NCBI GenBank assembly: GCA_001314545.1
Contig: LIHN01000004.1
Coordinates: 124,001-188,000 of the forward strand
From: Bacteroidetes bacterium HLUCCA01
GTDB taxonomy: Bacteria > Bacteroidota > Rhodothermia > Balneolales > HLUCCA01
Reading direction: 5' to 3'
DNA length: 64,000 nucleotides
How positions within the stretch are numbered: the stretch's first letter is position 1; each line of letters begins with the position of its first letter. Below the pieces are notes generated by a model. The model worked only from the letters and a program-made list of their open reading frames with translations, had not been told where the DNA came from and did no database searches. This document shows, piece after piece, positions 4,106 through 18,506 of this stretch. Made by a program: the position numbers and the translations under genes.

Positions 4106-4285
4106 AATAATGATTTTGTAAGGGATTATACTGTTTTGTGGAGGAGGGAGGCTTCGCAGTTAAACGGTTAACGCAAAACATTCCTGAAAATAGTCTGGTC
4201 GAAAATACGGATTATCCGCCACTTTTTTAAATAACTGAACCCATGCGGCGATGGTGCTAACCTGCTGTTATTTTTTTGCCTACAC

Positions 4286-4316
4286 AAAAAAGCCCGGCTC
4301 CGGGACCAGGCTTTTT
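4286..4316 (-). terminator. Terminator of metK (T-tracts on both strands)
   Basis: A hairpin, GCCCGG paired with CCAGGC with one C/A mismatch, is flanked by six A and five T. It can work in both directions but lies 35 bp after the metK stop, so it most likely ends metK. Confidence 0.75.
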
Positions 4317-4350
4317 CAGGTTTTAATAGTCCGGTACCGACAAGGTCGGA

Positions 4351-5484
4351 TTACAGACGGGCCTTGAGGGTGTCTGCGTAATCGAGCTGCTCCCAGGGAA
4401 ATTCGGGTCGACCAAAATGGCCGTAGGCCGCGGTATTCCGGAAGATGGGTTTGCGCAGGTCGAAGCGCTTGATAATGGAAGCCGGCTTGCAGTCAAAAAC
4501 TTCGCTAACCAGTTCCGCCAGTTCAGCGTCAGATTTTGTACCGGTTCCGTAGGTATTCACGTTGACGGAAACGGGCTCAGCAACGCCGATGGCATAGGCC
4601 AGCTGCACCAGGGCACGCTCGGCCAGACCGGCAGCAACCAGGTTTTTGGCAATATGGCGGGCTGCATATGCCGCGCTGCGATCTACTTTAGTAGCATCTT
4701 TACCCGAAAAAGCTCCACCGCCATGAGCACCGTGTCCGCCATAGGTATCTACAATGATTTTTCGACCGGTCAGACCCGTATCACCGTGTGGACCACCAAT
4801 CACAAATTTTCCGGTAGGGTTAACGTGTACGATGGTTTTCTCATCCATCATTCCCTCAGGAACAACACGCGGGAAGAGATGTTTGACGATATCTTCCCTG
4901 ATTTTGTCCTGACTTACGCCATCATCGTGCTGGGTGGAAACCACGATGGTATGTACCCGGACCGGCTTGCCGTCCTCATCGTACTCAACCGTCACCTGGC
5001 TTTTGCTGTCCGGAGCCAGATAGGGCATCAGGTCGGTATTTTTCCGGATATTCGCCAGTTCACGGACAAGATCGTGCGAGAGCTGGATGCTCAGCGGCAT
5101 CAGGTTTTCCGTTTCGGTACACGCATAACCAAACATCATACCCTGGTCGCCGGCTCCTTCAACATCAACGCCCTGGGCAATATCAGGACTCTGTTGGTGG
5201 ATGGTAACCATTACCCCGCAGGAATCCGCATCAAAGCGGTAGGTAGATTTTGTGTAACCGATCTGACGGATAACATCCCGTACAATTTCCTGTACATCGA
5301 TGTAGGCATCGGTAGTAACTTCTCCGGAAACGACCGCAAGACCCGTTGTTACGAGTGTTTCAACGGCTACGCGGGATTTGGGATCCTTCTCGAGCAGGGC
5401 ATCCAGAATGGCATCGGATATTTGATCGGAGACTTTGTCGGGATGCCCTTCTGATACGGACTCGGAGGTAAACAGATGTTTCAT
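4351..5484 (-). CDS. metK: S-adenosylmethionine synthetase
   Basis: MetK makes S-adenosylmethionine from methionine and ATP. The 377 residues begin with the family N-terminus [20 protein letters not shown] (methionine- and metal-binding). They continue with [12 protein letters not shown], the P-loop-like [19 protein letters not shown], and the C-terminal [11 protein letters not shown]. Length and motifs are normal, perhaps slightly short of the usual 385-400. It stands 99 bp downstream of ruvB on the same strand and has its own terminator. I saw no SAM riboswitch in the short upstream gap. The product also feeds LipA, a SAM-dependent enzyme encoded nearby. Confidence 0.97.
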
Positions 5485-5583
5485 TAAGCACGCAGATGAT
5501 TAAGTGATAAATAAATTCAATTTTTAGCCTCGAAAAATACGCATTTTTTCTGATAATATCCTGATGTATGGCGTGGGTGAGAG

Positions 5584-6615
5584 CTAGTTGGGATCATCCG
5601 GCTCATCGAACAAACTGGTTGCGGTTCCCGGCATTTTAATCCCCAGATAACGGTAAGCTTTGGGTGCGGGAATGCGACCTTTCGGGGTTCGCTGCAGGAA
5701 GCCTTCCTGGATGAGGTAAGGTTCGTAGACCTCCTCGATAGTTCCCTTGTCTTCACCAACGGCCACAGCAAGGGTGCCCAGCCCCGTGGGTTTGCCGCCA
5801 AACGTGTTGACCAGAGCATGCAAAATTCGCTGATCCATGTCATCAAGGCCTTGATTATCTACATCCAGAGCATTCAGCGCCTTATCAGCTATACGGTCAT
5901 CAATGGCCTGAAGTCCCTCAACTTCGGCAAAATCGCGGGTTCGACGCAGCAACCGGTTCACGATTCGAGGTGTGCCCCGGCTGCGTCTGGCAATTTCGTA
6001 GGAGCCCCTGGTAGTAATGTCGAAGCCGAGGATGCCTGAGGTACGTTCGGCTATCTGCTGCAGGGTCTCGGTTTCGTAGTAATCCAGGCGCAGGTCAATT
6101 CCAAAGCGCGCACGAAGCGGAGCCGTAAGCAAGCCTTTACGGGTTGTGGCGCCAACCAGTGTAAATTTGCGGAGCTCTATTTGCACACTACGTGCATTCG
6201 GACCGGAATCGATGATGATGTCAAGCTTGTAATCCTCCATAGCGGAATACAGGTATTCCTCTACCACCGGATTCAGACGGTGAATTTCATCGATAAACAA
6301 GACATCGCCTTCATCCAGCGAAGTCAGCAATCCGGCAAGGTCGCCCGGTTTTTCGAGTACAGGACCGGTTGTGGCCTTGAAGCTTACTCCCATTTCATTG
6401 GCGATGATGGCGGCGAGGGTGGTTTTGCCCAGTCCCGGCGGACCGGATAGCAGTACATGGTCCAGCGCTTCACCGCGCATTCCGGCTGCTTTTATAAAGA
6501 TCTGCAGGTTGTCAACCAGCTTTCGCTGACCTACGAAATCGTCCAGGCGCAGCGGTCGTACAGTTTGCTCGAAAGCCTGTTCTTTATCAGATGGATTCAG
6601 TAACGGGTTGTTCAA
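5584..6615 (-). CDS. ruvB: Holliday junction branch-migration helicase RuvB
   Basis: RuvB is the hexameric AAA+ motor that, with RuvA, drives Holliday junction branch migration. The 343 residues have Walker [12 protein letters not shown], Walker B DEIH, sensor 1 in VGATTR, an arginine finger region RARFGIDL, and a C-terminal winged helix ending in [13 protein letters not shown]. Only a TTG at 6615 can start it: an in-frame stop lies five codons upstream and no ATG precedes the conserved NPLLNPSD block. ruvA and ruvC are not in the window. A divergent 234 bp region separates it from ppk1. Confidence 0.96.
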
Positions 6616-6849: not shown

Positions 6850-9057
6850 ATGAGTACGCCAGAGAATGATGGATTTAACGAAGTTACCAAACGGGAAACC
6901 CGGGTTGGAGTACGAATGCTGCAGTCTTTTGATCCCCCACCCCGACCTGACCCTGACGCTGAACAGTTTGCCAATTATGAGCTGAGCTGGCTTAAGTTTA
7001 ACTGGCGGGTGCTGCACCAGGCAACCGATAGCCAAAACCCGTTGCTTGAACGGGTCAAATTTATCGGAATCGTGAAAAGTAATCTGGATGAATTCTTCCA
7101 GAAGCGTGTGGGCGGACTTAAACGACAGCTGGATGCTGATATCGGCAGTTTGTCTATGGACGGGATGATGCCCGCTGATCAGCTTGAAGCCATTCATGAA
7201 GAGGTGAAAAAAATGATTTCACGGGTTCGGGAAGTTTTCTTTGAAGAACTGGTTCCCGAAATGGAAACCCAGGGTATCCGGTTTTCATCCTATGAAGAGC
7301 TGACGGAGAAGCAAAAGACTAAAATGGACCGGTATTTCGATGAGCAGTTATACCCCATTCTGACGCCGTTGGTCATAGACCATGCCCATCCGTTTCCTTT
7401 TATCTCCAATAAGAGTCGGTCATTTGCCGTGGAGCTTCGAGACACCGAAACAGGCGAACCGGTTTTTGCACGGGTAAAAATTCCGGGTAATCGTCCGCGA
7501 TGGCTTACCGTCTCAAGGGGTAAAAAAGGCGTTACGCTGCTGCTCATTGACGACCTCCTTCGTGAAAAAATTCACCGGCTTTTCCCGGGTGCGCGTATTG
7601 TTTCGGCCCACGTTTTTCGTATTACCCGAAATGCCGATGTGGCACGCAATGAGGAAGAAGCTGACGACCTGCTCGAAATGATTGAAGAGGAGCTTCGGGA
7701 GCGGAAATTCGCGGCCGTTGTCAGGCTGGAGGCAGAGAGCTCAATGACCGACTCCATCCGTAAAATGCTCATGGAACGGCTGGGGGTAGGCAAAAATGAT
7801 ATCTATAAAGTTGAAGGGGCAATCGGACTGGCCGATGCGGTTGAACTTTACAAATTAAAGGGATTTGATCATCTCCGATTTTCTTCATGGGTTCCGGTGG
7901 TTCACCCGGAGCTTCGCAGGGATGTTGCCGGGGATGATATTTTTTCCACCATTCGCAAGCAGGACTTGCTGGTTCATCACCCTTATCACAGCTTTGCCAC
8001 CTCCGTACAGCGGTTTGTGGAAGAGGCCGCAGCCGATCCTTCGGTTCTGGCCATCAAGCAAACCCTGTACCGTACCTCCCGTGACTCCCCGCTGATGCAT
8101 GCGCTGATGCGGGCAGCCGAAGACGGAAAGCAGGTTGCCGTTCTAATCGAACTTAAAGCCCGGTTTGACGAGGAGCGGAATATGGAATGGGCTCAGCGAC
8201 TTGAGCAGGCCGGTGTGCACGTTGCTTATGGAATTGCCGGGCTGAAAATTCACAGCAAGATGACCATTGTTGTCCGGCAGGAAGGAACCAGGCTTCAGCG
8301 CTATGCGCATATCGGCACGGGAAATTACCACCCGGATACGGCTCAGTTATATGAAGACCTTGGTCTGTTTACTGCCAGGGAAGATCTCACGGCTGATGTG
8401 TCTGATCTCTTCAATTTTCTGACCGGATTCGCCCCGATGCAGTCGTACCGGAAGCTGTTGGTTGCACCACGCTACATGCGTAACCACATCACCGGGATGA
8501 TACAGTTCGAAGCGGCGCAGGCGCGCGACGGAAAACCCGCGCAGATAATCATGAAAATGAACAATCTTGAAGATCCGCTTATTATCAAAGAACTTTATGA
8601 AGCAGCTGATGCCGGGGTGGAAATCGACTGCATTGTCCGCAGTGTTTGCAGGTTGAAAACCTCCGGCAGACCCAATATCAGGGTACATTCGGTAATCGGT
8701 CGATTCCTGGAACACTCGCGGTTGTACTATTTTCATGCCGGAGGTGAAAACCGCTACTTCCTCGGATCCGCTGACATGATGCACCGAAATCTGGATGCCC
8801 GGGTTGAAGCACTCACCCCGGTTCTGCAGGAAGATATATGCCGTTACCTTCAGTTGGTGCTGGACAGTTACCTGAACTGCACCCTGCAGCGCTGGCAGCT
8901 GCAGGATGACGGAAGCTATATCGTTAATCCGGTACAAAGCGAAACCAAAGAGGATGTATCCGACAGTGATGTAGACGGCAAATCAGACAGTCGGGAAGTC
9001 GTCACCGCTGAAAAAATCCCCGTTCAGGAATTACTGATGCGATACCACACCCGATAA
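6850..9057 (+). CDS. ppk1: Polyphosphate kinase 1
   Basis: Ppk1 reversibly polymerises the gamma phosphate of ATP into polyphosphate. The 735 residues show the N-terminal domain (YELSWLKFNWRVL and VKSNLDEFFQKRVGGLKRQ), then the two phospholipase-D-like catalytic domains. The phosphorylated histidine is H468 in GLKIHSKM; the second conserved histidine is H622 in FLEHSRLYYF. GTGNYHPDTAQLYEDLGLFT is also typical. An acidic tail of about 45 residues after the core is not conserved in the family. The ATG at 6850 is preceded by no strong ribosome site, which is common in this group. It is a single-gene transcript convergent with the sigma factor downstream. Confidence 0.96.
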   Translation: MSTPENDGFNEVTKRETRVGVRMLQSFDPPPRPDPDAEQFANYELSWLKFNWRVLHQATDSQNPLLERVKFIGIVKSNLDEFFQKRVGGLKRQLDADIGSLSMDGMMPADQLEAIHEEVKKMISRVREVFFEELVPEMETQGIRFSSYEELTEKQKTKMDRYFDEQLYPILTPLVIDHAHPFPFISNKSRSFAVELRDTETGEPVFARVKIPGNRPRWLTVSRGKKGVTLLLIDDLLREKIHRLFPGARIVSAHVFRITRNADVARNEEEADDLLEMIEEELRERKFAAVVRLEAESSMTDSIRKMLMERLGVGKNDIYKVEGAIGLADAVELYKLKGFDHLRFSSWVPVVHPELRRDVAGDDIFSTIRKQDLLVHHPYHSFATSVQRFVEEAAADPSVLAIKQTLYRTSRDSPLMHALMRAAEDGKQVAVLIELKARFDEERNMEWAQRLEQAGVHVAYGIAGLKIHSKMTIVVRQEGTRLQRYAHIGTGNYHPDTAQLYEDLGLFTAREDLTADVSDLFNFLTGFAPMQSYRKLLVAPRYMRNHITGMIQFEAAQARDGKPAQIIMKMNNLEDPLIIKELYEAADAGVEIDCIVRSVCRLKTSGRPNIRVHSVIGRFLEHSRLYYFHAGGENRYFLGSADMMHRNLDARVEALTPVLQEDICRYLQLVLDSYLNCTLQRWQLQDDGSYIVNPVQSETKEDVSDSDVDGKSDSREVVTAEKIPVQELLMRYHTR

Positions 9058-9981: not shown

Positions 9982-10737
9982 ATGTATCGCGTTCAGCTAC
10001 AGAACTTTGAAGGTCCGCTCGACTTACTGCTCTTCTTTATCCGAAGGGATGAGCTGGATATTTATGACATCCCCATATCGTACATAACCGACCAGTTTTT
10101 TGAGTATATGCACTTCATGGAAGAGCTGGATCTCGGTATTGCCAGTGAGTTTATTTTTATGGCCAGCACCCTGATGTCTATCAAAGCCAAAATGATGTTG
10201 CCCAGGGAAATAAACGATGAAGACGAGTTCGATGAAAATGATCCCCGGTATGAACTGGTTCAAAGTCTGCTGGAGTATAAACGGTACAAGGAAATGGGAG
10301 CCGAACTTACAGAAATGGAACAGGCTGCACGTACAGCCTATCGTCGCAGACACTTCCAGCCTGATATAGTAGAAGAACCGGATGACGAGGAGCCCCTGCG
10401 GGATGTAACGCTGTACGATCTTATTGCAGCATACAAAACCATCCTGAATAAGGTGGCGCGGGACGAGATTGTGCACCGTGTTGAGCTGGTTAAAACCAGC
10501 ATCGAGGAACAGAGCGGCTATATCGTTGAACAGCTGCGTTCACATGGAAAACAATCGTTCTGGGAGCTCTGCCAGCACGCCCCAACCCGTATGGTTGTCA
10601 TCGTCACGTTTCTGGCTATTCTTGAAATGGTTCGTGAACAGCGACTTGTGCTCCTGATTGATGAAGACGTTACCCGATTTGCCGTCGACCTCCCGGATGC
10701 CCGTACTTTTATTGCTTCGACTTCCCAAAACACCTGA
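9982..10737 (+). CDS. scpA: Segregation and condensation protein A
   Basis: ScpA is the kleisin that bridges SMC heads in the bacterial condensin and helps origin segregation. The 251 residues start with the hallmark YRVQLQNFEGPLDLLLFFI, followed by the helical N-domain (DIPISYITDQFFEYM and LMSIKAKMMLP). An acidic linker and a C-terminal winged helix (about 165-235, VVIVTFLAILEMVREQRL) complete it. The usual partner scpB is not adjacent; the next gene is a secreted peptidase 39 bp downstream. The gap of about 350 bp upstream and the divergent sigma gene suggest its own promoter. Confidence 0.93.
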   Translation: MYRVQLQNFEGPLDLLLFFIRRDELDIYDIPISYITDQFFEYMHFMEELDLGIASEFIFMASTLMSIKAKMMLPREINDEDEFDENDPRYELVQSLLEYKRYKEMGAELTEMEQAARTAYRRRHFQPDIVEEPDDEEPLRDVTLYDLIAAYKTILNKVARDEIVHRVELVKTSIEEQSGYIVEQLRSHGKQSFWELCQHAPTRMVVIVTFLAILEMVREQRLVLLIDEDVTRFAVDLPDARTFIASTSQNT

Positions 10738-10776
10738 TATTTCTGATAATCTCCATACTTCGTAACTGAACTGACC

Positions 10777-12471
10777 ATGTATTTACTCAAAAACTACCTT
10801 ACTGTAGCTATTATTTTAATCGCGGGGGCGTCTTGCAGCTCCACCAACGAGGCGGGTTCGGCCCGGGAGCAACCTTCCGATCCGCACAGCTTTGCCTCCC
10901 TTATCTCCGAGGACTTTCTGCGCGAGCAACTTTACACCTTCGCTGGTGACGCGTTCGAAGGAAGAGGTACCGGACAGGCCGGCATCGAAATCTCCGCAGA
11001 TTATGTGGCTGACTTTTATCGCGAGCATGGTGTTTTGCCCCTGGGGGATGAGGGCTCGTATTTTCAGCATTTTAATCTCGCTTCTTTTGTGACCAACTCC
11101 GTGACGGCAGAACTTACATCCACCGCTCAGGATGAACCCGTTACGGTGTATAGCGAATCCTTTTCTGCCGCATCAACCGCAACCGATTTTTACCGGCTGA
11201 GCGGAGGCGGACAAGATTTTGAGGGGAACGTGGTTTTTGCCGGTTTTGGCATCACCGATGAGTCCCGTTCGGTTGATCACCTTGGGGAAATGGATCTCAC
11301 AGACAAATGGGTAATGGTGTACTCGGATATTCCTTTTGTTGTAGACGGCGATACGCTAGTTAATCCCGATGCCGGAGGATGGCAGCGTGTCAGAGAGATT
11401 CTTTTCAACCGGGCTGCAGGTGGTTTGATTTTAATACGCAACCTGGATGAAGATTCGCACACACAGGATGTTGAAGATTTCGCCCGACTCATGGGTATTC
11501 CATCGGGGTTTTCCCTGCCGGGCAATCCACCCCGCGGACGTTTCTCTGTTCCCATAATGAGTATAAGTCCGCAGCGTGCAGCTTCCATGATTGGTGCAGA
11601 AAGCGGCCTGGAAGCACATTATGCATCACTGACGTCTTCCATCAACACTTTTGAGCCCGTTGTTCTGGATTATCGCCTGGCTGTCACTTCTGAAACAGTA
11701 CAGCAGGATACACCCGTCAAAAATATTGTGGGGCTTATCGAAGGAAGTCATCCTGAGCTGAAAAATGAGTACATCGTGATCAGTGCACATTATGACCACC
11801 TTGGTTTATCTACCCCGGATGCTGCCGGTGATTTTATTTATAACGGTGCCGATGACAACGGCAGCGGAAGTGTCAATTTGCTTGCCCAGGCCAGGGCGCT
11901 TATGGCAGCCAGGGAAGCCGGTGCAGGGCCTGATCGCAGTATTATTCTGCTTCATGTCACAGCAGAGGAAGTGGGACTGCTTGGATCCCGGTATTATTCC
12001 GATAATCCAACCGTGCCAATAGGGCAGATCATCGCCAACATCAATACCGACATGATTGGTCGCGTAGATGATACCATGGCTGCTGAGGGGGTTGAAGATT
12101 ATGTCTACATTATTGGCGCTGAAATAATCAGCTCCGACCTGAATGACAGGCTTATGGAGGCAAGTGAAATCCGTGGCAATGCACTGGATCTGAATATGCG
12201 GTTCAATGATCTGGATGACCGAAATCAGTTTTATCGTCGCAGCGACCACTGGAATTTCGGTCGGCTGGGTATTCCTTTCATCTTTTTCTTCTCGGGTGTG
12301 CATGCAGACTATCACCAACCTGGTGACAGTCCCGACAAAATCACCTACGGACCCTATACCAAGCGGGTGCAATTGATCTATTCAACGGTGATTCAACTGG
12401 CCAACCATCCCGAAGTGCCCGTAGTTGACAGTCAGGAGTTCATTCGCCGAACTGAGGTAAGCCCGCGTTGA
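10777..12471 (+). CDS. M28-family zinc aminopeptidase, lipoprotein
   Basis: This is a lipid-anchored metallopeptidase for periplasmic or surface peptide breakdown. The signal peptide (residues 1-19) ends in AGAS before C20, a plausible though not ideal lipobox. A protease-associated-like insert fills about residues 120-250. The M28 catalytic domain follows from about 310 with all metal and catalytic residues visible: SAHYDH, GADDNGSGS, HVTAEEVGLLGS, NTDMIGR and the C-terminal HADYHQPGD. At 564 residues it is typical of secreted M28 peptidases of this group. It starts 39 bp after scpA and may be cotranscribed with it and prfC, though no functional tie is apparent. The substrate is unknown. Confidence 0.92.
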   Translation: MYLLKNYLTVAIILIAGASCSSTNEAGSAREQPSDPHSFASLISEDFLREQLYTFAGDAFEGRGTGQAGIEISADYVADFYREHGVLPLGDEGSYFQHFNLASFVTNSVTAELTSTAQDEPVTVYSESFSAASTATDFYRLSGGGQDFEGNVVFAGFGITDESRSVDHLGEMDLTDKWVMVYSDIPFVVDGDTLVNPDAGGWQRVREILFNRAAGGLILIRNLDEDSHTQDVEDFARLMGIPSGFSLPGNPPRGRFSVPIMSISPQRAASMIGAESGLEAHYASLTSSINTFEPVVLDYRLAVTSETVQQDTPVKNIVGLIEGSHPELKNEYIVISAHYDHLGLSTPDAAGDFIYNGADDNGSGSVNLLAQARALMAAREAGAGPDRSIILLHVTAEEVGLLGSRYYSDNPTVPIGQIIANINTDMIGRVDDTMAAEGVEDYVYIIGAEIISSDLNDRLMEASEIRGNALDLNMRFNDLDDRNQFYRRSDHWNFGRLGIPFIFFFSGVHADYHQPGDSPDKITYGPYTKRVQLIYSTVIQLANHPEVPVVDSQEFIRRTEVSPR

Positions 12472-15147: not shown

Positions 15148-15390
15148 ATGAAATACATCAAGTCAACCCTTATTGCCGGTGCTTTGCTGGCCACGTTCTC
15201 ATTCACCGCTCAGGCTGAAGAGGCCCAGCAGCTTGGTCCATTAGAGTCCTACATCGTTTGTGCCGAAGGCTGTGTTAGCCGGACCCTGCCATGGTCATGG
15301 AGAAGAACAGCATGTGCCACAGACTGCTATCTGGAGTTTATTGGTGAGGTAGGTGCTACCGTTATCCAGATCTTCAACTCTAACAAGTAG
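15148..15390 (+). CDS. Small secreted peptide with CX3C-X13-CX3C cysteine pattern
   Basis: I do not recognise the family. The product is 80 residues from the ATG at 15148, which sits behind TGAGG at 15137-15141, a better ribosome site than most genes here have. A clear signal peptide (KYIKS, a hydrophobic core, then TAQA) should be cut before EEAQQL, leaving about 57 residues. The mature part has four cysteines, at mature positions 15, 19, 33 and 37: CAEGC and CATDC, separated by 13 residues that include LPWSWRR. This CX3C-Xn-CX3C spacing is that of disulfide-linked helical hairpins. A hydrophobic C-terminal segment (GATVIQIF) and a polar end follow. A terminator-like hairpin right after the stop would make its transcript more abundant than the genes behind it. 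It may be a secreted effector, signal or bacteriocin-like peptide. Confidence 0.82.
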   Translation: MKYIKSTLIAGALLATFSFTAQAEEAQQLGPLESYIVCAEGCVSRTLPWSWRRTACATDCYLEFIGEVGATVIQIFNSNK

Positions 15391-15399
15391 GAATGTATT

Positions 15400-15430
15400 C
15401 CGGGTCTGTCGGGGTACCCGGTATTTTTTT
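15400..15430 (+). terminator. Hairpin attenuator between the peptide and the propeller gene
   Basis: CCGGGT (15400-15405) pairs with ACCCGG (15416-15421) around a 10-base loop, followed within two bases by seven T (15424-15430). It lies 9 bp after the peptide stop and 13 bp before the next start. It probably terminates most transcripts while letting some read into the lipoprotein and ABC genes. Confidence 0.75.
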
Positions 15431-15443
15431 ATCTGATAAACCT

Positions 15444-16364
15444 ATGAAAAATTTGGTCTTAGTCATTGGTTTTATGTGGCTTGTCGCCTGTAATAACCAA
15501 ATAGAAACTGATTATGCTGTTGTAGAGCAGTCGGGTCAAACAACGAATCAGTATGACAACCTGCTCAACGATTACAGGCTGATTACTGAAATTGGCAGTT
15601 ATTTTTATGCCACCGATCTAACCTCTACCCGGCTCGTGAAAATGGATAACGAATATAATGTTGTTCTAGCCGAAGGCAGAGAAGGTCATGGTCCGGGAGA
15701 GTTCATGCGTATTGCGGGTCTGTTTGAAGTTGGCGATGAGTTATATGTCTTTGATGACAGAACGAGACGCGTAAGTGTTATGGACTTGAACCTTCAGTTG
15801 AAAAGAGTTTTCACCCTGGATGAACAGATTATTGACCTTGAATTTGTTGGAAACCGCGCCTTTGCCGTGCTATTTCAAATGGATAAATGGTCACTGATAG
15901 AATACGATGTAGCTTCATTTAAAAACCCTTCTTACCTGCATGTTGAAAATACCACGCATGCCGACCATGGAATTGGTTATTTGTACGCAAGAGAAGACCA
16001 CCTGATTACGAACCATATTTTCACAAACAAAAGTACACTTCTGGATATCCGTACAGGAGAAGTTAAAAAACTCGCTTTCAGTCACTTGCCGGAGCAAACG
16101 ACCTATTCAAATGCCGGTGGAAGGCGAGTACCCCTGAAACCCGTGTATTTCACGGCTATGCCTTACGGAGAGTCCATCATACAGCTGGCCGAAATCAATG
16201 ATAAAATGATGGTCTTCATCACAGACTTCAGCGGTAATGTACGGTATGCGGTTCATCTGACTGACAGCCTTACTGCGGCATCCTTATCGGAAAGAGGGGT
16301 ATATGGATTGAGTGACTCAGCAACGTATTTCTATCCACTAGATACACTTTTAAAAGATGATTGA
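15444..16364 (+). CDS. Six-bladed beta-propeller lipoprotein
   Basis: The product is 306 residues from the ATG at 15444. The signal peptide ends in the lipobox LVAC (lipidated C16). The hallmark GREGHGPGEF (about residues 78-87) is typical of the six-bladed propeller lipoproteins (BF3164/NHL-like) common in Bacteroidota. Repeated strand patterns follow, such as ELYVFDDRTRRVSVMD and HLITNHIFTNKSTLLDI, as expected for blades. No catalytic motif is seen; such proteins are thought to bind ligands or partners at the outer membrane or periplasm. It lies directly behind the secreted peptide and overlaps the ABC ATPase start by 8 bases, so translation is coupled. Its binding partner could be the peptide; this is inference. 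Confidence 0.8.
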   Translation: MKNLVLVIGFMWLVACNNQIETDYAVVEQSGQTTNQYDNLLNDYRLITEIGSYFYATDLTSTRLVKMDNEYNVVLAEGREGHGPGEFMRIAGLFEVGDELYVFDDRTRRVSVMDLNLQLKRVFTLDEQIIDLEFVGNRAFAVLFQMDKWSLIEYDVASFKNPSYLHVENTTHADHGIGYLYAREDHLITNHIFTNKSTLLDIRTGEVKKLAFSHLPEQTTYSNAGGRRVPLKPVYFTAMPYGESIIQLAEINDKMMVFITDFSGNVRYAVHLTDSLTAASLSERGVYGLSDSATYFYPLDTLLKDD

Positions 16365-17091
16365 ATTGCAGAATGTAACCAAAACGTACGGCAAAAGTCG
16401 GGACGGAATACCTGAACCAATCTCACTTTCTATTCAAAAAGGTGAATCTGTATGCCTGATTGGTCCGAATGGGTCGGGTAAAAGTACCTTAATTAAACTT
16501 GCAGCCCGACTCGCACTGCCCGAAAGCGGCTCTGTACGGTACTTACACAATAATATCCGTATCGGCTATATGCCCGAAATAATGAACCTGCCCCGTGGCA
16601 TAACCGGTAGTAGCCTTATGAAATTGATTACCCCGGTATCAACTAAGAATGCGGTACCTAATGAATTAATCGATTTGTTGGATATGGGTCCGGTAATGGA
16701 CAAACCGGTTTACAGGCAGTCTAAAGGAATGAAAAAGAAAACCGCTCTTTTGGCGGCTCTTTCCATGAACCCGACTTTGTTGATACTGGATGAGCCCTTT
16801 GAGGGTCTGGATACACTGGATCGGGAAAAGCTCATTGGTTTCCTGGCAACCAGAATAGATAAAGGACTCACAATCCTGATATCAACGCACATTTTATATG
16901 AGGTTAATCGTATCTGCTCACATGCTGTGTTTATGAGGAAAGGATATCCGGTGCTGAAAATAAACAAGTCCGACGCAGTACTATCTTCTCAACTTGAACC
17001 GGATATAGAATCAACCATCAGACAACAGATCCAGAATGAAATCAACTCACCATCATTGCTGTCAGATATCTATAAAACCATTTACGCATGA
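16357..17091 (+). CDS. ABC transporter ATP-binding protein
   Basis: This is the 244-residue nucleotide-binding subunit of an ABC-2-type exporter. Walker A is GPNGSGKST (K42). The signature region is QSKGMKKK, the degenerate form common in ABC-2 exporters. Walker B is LLILDEPFEGLD, and the H-loop histidine is in LISTHILYEV. It overlaps the propeller gene by 8 bases and the permease gene by 4 (ATGA), so the three are one translational unit. With the permease it would form a dimeric pump in the inner membrane. Cargo is unknown. The preceding peptide has a Sec-type signal, so the pump may export a processed product or serve immunity rather than primary secretion. Confidence 0.93.
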   Translation: MIELQNVTKTYGKSRDGIPEPISLSIQKGESVCLIGPNGSGKSTLIKLAARLALPESGSVRYLHNNIRIGYMPEIMNLPRGITGSSLMKLITPVSTKNAVPNELIDLLDMGPVMDKPVYRQSKGMKKKTALLAALSMNPTLLILDEPFEGLDTLDREKLIGFLATRIDKGLTILISTHILYEVNRICSHAVFMRKGYPVLKINKSDAVLSSQLEPDIESTIRQQIQNEINSPSLLSDIYKTIYA

Positions 17092-17861
17092 ATATCAGTA
17101 TCAATCTTTTCCGAATTAACCTGGCTGTACTTCGTAGTGCAAGAAGCGTATGGTTACTGGCAATAACGGGTATGCTGGTTATGTACGCTGTTTTCGCCGC
17201 TGAAATTTCAGGCGATGGTCCAACCGCAATTTTTGTACTTGGTACGGTCGCACTCCCTGTTTCCAGTATTGAGTCAACCATTAACCTGCCAGAGATTTTT
17301 ACAGGACTTCTGCTGATAATCACCGTCCTTTATCAGAGAAGCTATCTGCTGGAAGGGCAACTGGCCGGGATTTGGCTGGCAAACCATCAAAACCGAATAC
17401 CATACCTGCTGGCATTTTTTATAACAATGCTTCTCGCAATAATACTCGTAACCAGTGGATATTTATTTCTTTACCTGAAAGCGGGTTATTCCACAGCTGC
17501 AGCATTATACGCCTTCGCCGGTAAGCTTCTGATGTTTTTCAGTTTTGTGATTTTCCTCACATTGATTGTAAATATCAGGGGAACAGGTACGTTTGCTCTG
17601 ATTTATTTCCTGATTCTTGTGTTTGTCACCCCGGTTGCACTGCAAAGTTTGAAATCGGTGTTCACAAGCAGTTCATGGGTGCAAGATATTGCAGAATTTA
17701 TATCCTATGTACTTACACCCCAGTGGAAGCTGGAGGAATTCTCTCGACAAATCATAGCAACCCGATATATTCAATCCGATACCTTCTTATGGTCGTTATC
17801 ATCTTTGATTTTCTGGATTCTTATCAACATCTGGATATTCAACAAAAAGGATATAACATAA
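17088..17861 (+). CDS. ABC-2-type transporter permease
   Basis: The product is 257 residues with about six hydrophobic segments (near 20-40, 66-82, 105-130, 150-165, 175-192 and 232-250). This is the usual layout of an ABC-2-type permease subunit. I see no further conserved motif, and similarity to known subfamilies cannot be judged by eye. It starts inside the ATPase stop codon and ends 15 bp before the thioredoxin-fold lipoprotein. It is the expected membrane partner of that ATPase. Confidence 0.8.
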   Translation: MNISINLFRINLAVLRSARSVWLLAITGMLVMYAVFAAEISGDGPTAIFVLGTVALPVSSIESTINLPEIFTGLLLIITVLYQRSYLLEGQLAGIWLANHQNRIPYLLAFFITMLLAIILVTSGYLFLYLKAGYSTAAALYAFAGKLLMFFSFVIFLTLIVNIRGTGTFALIYFLILVFVTPVALQSLKSVFTSSSWVQDIAEFISYVLTPQWKLEEFSRQIIATRYIQSDTFLWSLSSLIFWILINIWIFNKKDIT

Positions 17862-17876
17862 ACCGTCTTGCTGCAT

Positions 17877-18506
17877 ATGATTAACGGAATAAAGACCACC
17901 GTACTTTATTTTGCTGCCGTACTATTGATAGTTTCCTGCTCTGGCAAAGGAAATCATATGCCCGGGGGTCAGCGGAGTTACGAAAACATTGCTTCCATTC
18001 TGAATCAGTTACCTGAAGTTTTGGCAACAGCAGTTGATAATACCGGCAAAATGTCCATCTCTGATTATGAGTCTTCTGAAGAACCTGATACCGCCTCAAT
18101 TCAGCTGGAGGTTGCCGATCTTGCAGAAAAACATGATCAAAGCAAAAATTATGGTACACTGGTACTGGTAACCCATATTACACACTGCAGGTTTTGTCTG
18201 GATGAACTTGATTTCTGGCAAGAATGGACTAATTCGGAAAATTCTAACCCTATGGGTGCACAAAAACCAACTGTTTTATTGGTTATTACAGGTGCAAACG
18301 ATGCAGATGCCGGATTATTTGTAAAAAACCATGGCTATACCTTCAAAACCCTCCTGGATACTGATGATCGTCTAGCCGGGTATGTACCTGATTTTGGTAC
18401 ACCCTTTAAACTATTCATCGACCATAACCATCATATAGAGGATATACGTCCGATCGGGACCAATGAAAATCTAAACAGGTATGTGAGCTCCGTTATTGGT
18501 ATTTAA
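17877..18506 (+). CDS. Thioredoxin-fold (TlpA-like) lipoprotein with CRFC motif
   Basis: The product is 209 residues from the ATG at 17877. The signal peptide ends in LIVSC, placing the lipidated cysteine at 21. The C-terminal half has the thioredoxin-like order: strand LVLVTHITH, the active-site motif C104-R-F-C107 at a helix start (LDELDFWQEW), then a cis-proline-like stretch (VPDFGTPFKLFID). The CXXC motif suggests a periplasmic disulfide reductase or isomerase. It is the last gene of the peptide operon, so a role in forming or reducing the disulfides of the four-cysteine peptide is attractive, but unproven. It could instead be a general redox lipoprotein. Confidence 0.75.
   Translation: MINGIKTTVLYFAAVLLIVSCSGKGNHMPGGQRSYENIASILNQLPEVLATAVDNTGKMSISDYESSEEPDTASIQLEVADLAEKHDQSKNYGTLVLVTHITHCRFCLDELDFWQEWTNSENSNPMGAQKPTVLLVITGANDADAGLFVKNHGYTFKTLLDTDDRLAGYVPDFGTPFKLFIDHNHHIEDIRPIGTNENLNRYVSSVIGI

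Follow-up and report, generated by a model that had tools for sequence, protein, structure and literature searches.

What is the function of an operon in which a small secreted cysteine peptide is followed by a propeller lipoprotein, an ATP-binding cassette (ABC) ATPase, a permease and a lipoprotein with a CXXC motif? Such an operon lies in a 64,000-nucleotide stretch of the Bacteroidetes bacterium HLUCCA01 genome (contig LIHN01000004.1, positions 124,001 to 188,000; hereafter the window). The five open reading frames (ORFs) that the original prediction had listed were all confirmed, and so were their junctions: the propeller and ATPase ORFs overlap by 8 bp, the ATPase and permease ORFs share ATGA, and the CXXC lipoprotein gene starts 15 bp after the permease gene. 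The 53 bp gap between the peptide and propeller genes contains a hairpin with a T-run. Because the whole operon recurs syntenically in the relatives G001 and G003 and, without the thioredoxin-like gene, in G004, it is real and not a chance arrangement. The cassette is probably a dedicated bacterial peptide system. As the leading interpretation, with a probability of roughly 0.45, we propose that it makes a secreted, disulfide-stapled and probably antagonistic peptide and that the propeller and the ABC pump protect the producer, as LanI does together with BcrAB/LanFEG, although the cassette is not a member of those families. The prediction had missed the divergent helix-turn-helix (HTH) gene, the hairpin behind the peptide gene and the wide distribution of the cassette.

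Searches of five family genomes detected the permease and the peptide together in G001 and G004 and missed both in G002 and G003. Direct reading of G003 revealed a diverged full copy comprised of HTH, peptide, propeller, ATPase, permease and a thioredoxin-like lipoprotein with the motif CGAC. G002 retains the HTH gene beside prfC with no cassette there; in the next ORF after the HTH gene (L036, 8139-8414), close to a contig end, a DUF4297/LmuA-like defence gene begins. The copies of the window, G001 and G004 sit downstream of prfC and share their flanks. Between the window and G001, prfC is 92% identical and the other flanking genes 68-71%, compared with 49% for the peptide, 47% for the HTH, 33% for the propeller and 31% for the permease; the cassette thus diverges much faster than its flanks.

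The cassette extends well beyond this family. A first peptide model from three genomes found only family members, and the wider loci required a CX3C profile of seven peptides, four from the window family, one from G040 and two from G096. Run over 235 genomes of the class, this profile gave nine loci outside its training set at E<1e-3, spread over two orders, and in eight of them (G071, G050, G014 twice, G172, G170, G169 and G069) the peptide, propeller, ABC ATPase and permease genes follow one another in that order. At the ninth (G077), which has an AraC-type HTH upstream, the contig ends 387 bp past the peptide. A 14-member profile searched over 394 genomes of the phylum recovered a cassette from another class (G247) that is complete and also encodes an inserted MauE protein, as well as a peptide with a propeller fragment at a contig end (G427). 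Weaker peptide matches in G147, G008 and G257 were discarded as noise, being either unlinked, as the neighbourhoods of G147 and G008 revealed, or interrupted by stops. Peptide homologues therefore do not mostly occur apart from the propeller, ATPase and permease, and the expected co-occurrence holds for these three genes. It fails for the thioredoxin-like lipoprotein, which is present in three of the four family copies and in no cassette outside the family, where other disulfide-type genes or none are found. Given its absence from G004 and from every outside cassette, we rejected it as a core partner; it is a local addition.

The window peptide has a Sec-like leader (MKYIKSTLIAGALLATFSFTAQA, followed by EE), and its mature part is about 57 residues long; the cysteines at positions 38, 42, 56 and 60 are invariant. 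The mature peptide was modelled as a two-helix hairpin with a predicted local distance difference test (pLDDT) score of 81.6, from an input of only four sequences. The invariant cysteines and the two-helix model fit the α-hairpinin framework (XnCX3CXnCX3CXn and helix-loop-helix), with the disulfide pairing predicted, and six-cysteine relatives widen this framework symmetrically to CX6CX3C...CX3CX6C. On the basis of the leader, the CX3C...CX3C framework and the model, the peptide is probably disulfide-stapled. Foldseek returned no significant match to the model (E >= 1.7), the top three being two vicilin-leader hairpins and Tim9, which carries twin CX3C motifs. Homology to plant α-hairpinins was not evident in profile comparison against the PDB, where the best match to a member (2l2r) had E=3.5, and a contig profile scan with the peptide alone found only signal-peptide look-alikes, in Marinomonas. 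The prediction had cautioned that the peptide is not of the NVEALA type, and this was borne out: the NVEALA profile (PF14055) did not match the window peptide up to E=10 and matched none of 12 genomes of this set, while the control, Bacteroides ihuae, did match. NVEALA membership was therefore rejected. A literature search for NVEALA or DUF5128, with small coverage of subscription papers, found no paper.

In two close pairs the ratio of nonsynonymous to synonymous substitution rates (dN/dS) was 0.37 and 0.28 for the peptide and 0.18 and 0.10 for the ATPase. The peptide values identify a real, constrained protein gene, and the peptide is a working protein under purifying selection; positive selection was sought in the close pairs and was not seen. 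Such constraint would also be in keeping with a peptide that stays in the cell as a small subunit, binding the propeller and the ABC transporter and tuning the transport of a lipid or another substrate. In agreement with this idea, the peptide gene is invariably linked to those of propeller and pump, and the cassette encodes no route out through the outer membrane. Locus L088 (8220-9572) fits as well: a single ORF there joins a leader and cysteine peptide to a propeller that has a lipobox-like segment of its own; that ORF is either a natural fusion or the result of a lost stop or an assembly error. Other loci fit a fixed subunit poorly. G096 (L081, 8365-8841) encodes two different six-cysteine peptides in tandem with one propeller and one ABC pair, resembling a two-peptide system, and propeller-linked peptides occur without any ABC pair in L038, L039, L042 and L055. 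Moreover, the terminator-like hairpin behind the peptide gene implies that peptide and partners are made in different amounts. A hairpin with z<-2 follows the peptide gene in 9 of 14 cassettes compared with 11 of 66 control gaps (Mann-Whitney p=6e-5); that of the window, followed by seven T, is modest in energy (z -0.8) and weak on its own. A hairpin after the peptide gene is a common layout in bacteriocin operons. We regard the role of a retained envelope partner as somewhat unlikely.

The lipoprotein was predicted to be a six-bladed propeller, and modelling upheld this assignment: the AlphaFold2 model (pLDDT 88.6) has strands consistent with six four-stranded blades, and its best Foldseek matches are NHL, BamB and BtuG-type propellers. 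Against DUF5128 (PF17170) the window propeller scores 19.1 bits, under the gathering score of 22.9, and its relative in L044 scores 39 bits, above the cut-off; both are rows of one alignment (A7). DUF5128-like propellers are abundant, with 33 to 60 matches per genome in G096, G014 and G016, many in tandem runs. For the CXXC lipoprotein, the lipoprotein assignment and the CRFC motif stood, and the predicted thioredoxin fold is suggested by weak matches to StoA and ResA (E=0.015-0.1), with CRFC aligned to the StoA active site at E=0.015; the protein is conserved in G001 and, as the CGAC protein, in G003.

Judged by its profile matches, the ATPase is recognizable as having the general ABC fold and does not belong to a curated LanFEG/BcrAB-type immunity family, since it scores 94 bits against the lantibiotic-protection model, far below the cut-off of 310. 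PADLOC anti-phage profiles run on the cassette gave only generic ATPase matches to this protein. The permease has no Pfam match; span prediction gives it six hydrophobic segments, whose spacing is shared by several cassettes. Permeases of the window family and of the G040 and G096 cassettes were not detectably homologous in a profile comparison, and common descent of the membrane part of the pump across families is therefore not demonstrated. If the pair were an exporter of the peptide with the propeller as a periplasmic or surface adaptor, the likeness of the ATPase to PmtC, the phenol-soluble modulin (PSM) exporter subunit and one of many ABC ATPases it resembles, would be accounted for. The PmtC score is, however, far below the cut-off (96 of 375 bits), the cassette has no double-glycine leader, peptidase C39, adaptor or TolC-type gene, and such export would be redundant with the Sec leader; we consider it very improbable. 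Because of the Sec leader, the ABC pair is unnecessary for crossing the inner membrane, and retrieval or immunity is the economical role for the pump. The original idea of a secreted peptide system with maturation and immunity or export parts is thus partly supported, export being its weaker half.

A short HTH gene adjoins the cassette in all four same-family copies, and its family is common across the order. Of the 47 short HTHs taken from 26 genomes, 21 lie no more than 3 kb from a propeller, where 1.7 would be expected; when the loci that trained the propeller profile are left out, the count is 9 of 35 compared with 1.3 expected (p ~2e-6), the null being a Poisson estimate over genomes that are not independent. 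For 22 of 45 HTHs a leader-bearing small peptide with 3-8 cysteines, as called by a simple script and not by SignalP, is encoded no further than 3 kb away; the same is true of 2 of 37 control places (Fisher p=1.7e-5), and both control matches are one ORF that itself adjoins a propeller (L062). Short HTHs therefore adjoin propellers and small secreted cysteine peptides far above chance. Upstream of the peptide gene an element, ATACCGGCA...CAATAA, is kept in position and letters in the window, G001 and G004 amid poorly alignable DNA, and is a possible HTH operator or promoter part.

A dedicated regulator beside all family copies and several others could point to signalling, in which the stapled peptide would be a pheromone, the surface propeller its receptor or carrier, the ABC pair the means of releasing or clearing it and the short HTH the response regulator. 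The rapid co-divergence of the peptide and its partners and the anionic, non-lytic-looking character of the peptides are in line with such a role. The HTH is, however, cytoplasmic and has no sensor domain, the cassette encodes no importer or kinase, and no HTH of this family lies beside the cassettes of G169, G170, G172 and G247 or either G014 locus. On balance a signalling function appears rather unlikely.

Other short-HTH neighbourhoods contain MauE and a signal peptidase with a different peptide type. In this second cassette type (L042, L043, L055, L075, L076, L080 and L082) a short HTH is found with a leader peptide of the pattern ...YAGPCxxxGC...C...C, a propeller and a signal peptidase-like (S26) protein, along with a MauE-like protein in most loci and an ABC pair directly in none. 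Nine loci, mostly centred on a short HTH (L040, L041, L046, L054, L076, L086, L087, L091 and L135), encode small peptides of the double-glycine type, ABC exporters with a C39 peptidase, or both; a VKOR-thioredoxin fusion is present in some. At two others the short HTH stands directly next to a contractile-tail sheath gene, in L053 (HTH 7536-7955, sheath 4156-5697) and L092 (HTH 7794-8201, sheath 10044-11618), which are possibly extracellular injection systems. The features of the window cassette are collected in Table 1.

Table 1 Features of the peptide cassette and its upstream region (window coordinates).
Feature	Position	Strand	Evidence and remarks
Short AraC-type HTH regulator gene, 130 aa	14332..14721	-	HTH_18 only (PF12833, E=4e-11); lacks a sensor domain; oriented divergently to the operon
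Conserved upstream element ATACCGGCA...CAATAA	15099..15119	+	Conserved in window, G001 and G004; candidate promoter/operator
Four-cysteine peptide precursor, 80 aa	15148..15390	+	Signal ~15148-15216, mature ~15217-15387; CX3C-x13-CX3C
Terminator-like hairpin with T-run	15395..15430	+	Separates the peptide gene from the rest of the operon; probably a partial terminator
Predicted six-bladed β-propeller lipoprotein, DUF5128-like	15444..16364	+	PF17170 E=8e-4 (below cut-off); AlphaFold2 model; Foldseek; lipobox LVAC
ABC transporter ATPase	16357..17091	+	PF00005 E=4.6e-21; Walker A and signature intact in alignment
Predicted six-span permease of the ABC pair	17088..17861	+	Six hydrophobic segments; relatives in G001 and G004
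Thioredoxin-like lipoprotein, motif CRFC	17877..18506	+	Weak StoA/ResA matches; accessory, family-specific

How does the cassette relate to known systems? Self-immunity by a lipoprotein and an ABC-2 pump is known from LanI with LanFEG, and from BcrAB with one permease (PMC4239024). Like these, the cassette has a peptide gene near a lipid-anchored protein and an ABC ATPase and permease, with a single permease of 200-260 aa as in BcrAB; it differs in having no lanthionine or C39 machinery, a Sec leader, a Gram-negative-type host and a propeller in place of LanI. Gallocin A, a disulfide-stapled helical-hairpin bacteriocin, depends on a thioredoxin-like protein (PMC10100652). Shared with this and other helical-hairpin class IIb bacteriocins are the stapled hairpin, the relevance of a thioredoxin-like surface protein, the few charged residues and, in one relative of the cassette, tandem peptides, whereas the CX3C twin motif, Sec leader, propeller and ABC genes set the cassette apart and no sequence relation is shown. 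Plant α-hairpinins (PMC7191063) have the same CX3C...CX3C helix-loop-helix, and EcAMP1 and α-hairpinin-like vicilin leaders are among the weak PDB matches of the peptide; these are plant peptides with other loop lengths and the matches are not significant (E=1.7-3.9), so that the likeness is one of framework only. The original prediction had pointed to Bacteroides NVEALA peptides, often beside BF3164-type propeller lipoproteins, which resemble the cassette in placing a small leader peptide next to a six-bladed propeller lipoprotein, but the cassette peptide lacks a match to their profile and has the CX3C twin motif, and the cassette includes the ABC pair. The cassette belongs to no named family. 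Its parts are of known general kinds, a peptide with a dedicated lipoprotein and ABC pump, and we therefore class it as a variant of that theme.

A peptide gene beside a lipid-anchored binder and an ABC pump is the layout of bacteriocin self-immunity; the likeness of the cassette to this layout, together with the known helical-hairpin bacteriocins, is the reason why antagonism with self-protection leads. In the proposed mechanism, the divergent short HTH protein would control the cassette, and the partial terminator would make the peptide gene the most expressed of the operon. Export by the Sec system would bring the peptide into the periplasm; there, two disulfides would staple it into a two-helix hairpin, probably assisted in the window family by the lipid-anchored thioredoxin-fold protein. 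The peptide would then exit the cell and act on neighbouring cells, while the lipid-anchored propeller may bind it and the ABC ATPase-permease pair may clear it from the inner membrane of the producer, in the manner of LanI plus BcrAB/LanFEG. Support for antagonism comes from co-inheritance, namely the four-gene order at the new loci and the cassette in another class, and from the hairpin behind the peptide gene, the tandem peptides of G096, the fast divergence of the cassette and the peptide dN/dS. We also count in its favour that HTHs of the same family adjoin contractile-sheath genes and double-glycine peptides exported by C39 transporters, two kinds of neighbour that are characteristic of competition. 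Several observations weigh on the other side. The 14 mature peptides that were examined all have a negative net charge (-2 to -9), in which they differ from typical membrane-lytic peptides, and no outer-membrane exit route for the peptide is encoded in the cassette; for these two reasons the signalling and envelope-partner explanations retain some probability. In addition, fast divergence with dN/dS <1 fits signalling or relaxed constraint equally well, and some HTHs of this family adjoin housekeeping genes.

The gene cassette is real and undescribed, and distant relatives carry it with peptides that differ greatly. Tentatively, and at somewhat less than even odds, we suggest that it represents an undescribed class of peptide systems of Gram-negative bacteria that spans the phylum, in which short HTHs would control Sec-exported, disulfide-stapled anionic peptides, propeller lipoproteins would be the universal partners (peptide-specific receptors or immunity proteins), and interchangeable modules (the ABC pair, MauE plus signal peptidase, or thioredoxin) would vary with the peptide type. 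If antagonism is true, Gram-negative-type bacteria would have a new pairing of peptide weapon and immunity, and many more could be traced from this cassette. Should the signalling or the partner explanation be true instead, a function would be assigned to DUF5128-like propellers, of which the genome of one relative has up to 60 matches. Under any reading, further loci can be searched for directly with the twin CX3C profile combined with the propeller-ABC neighbourhood.

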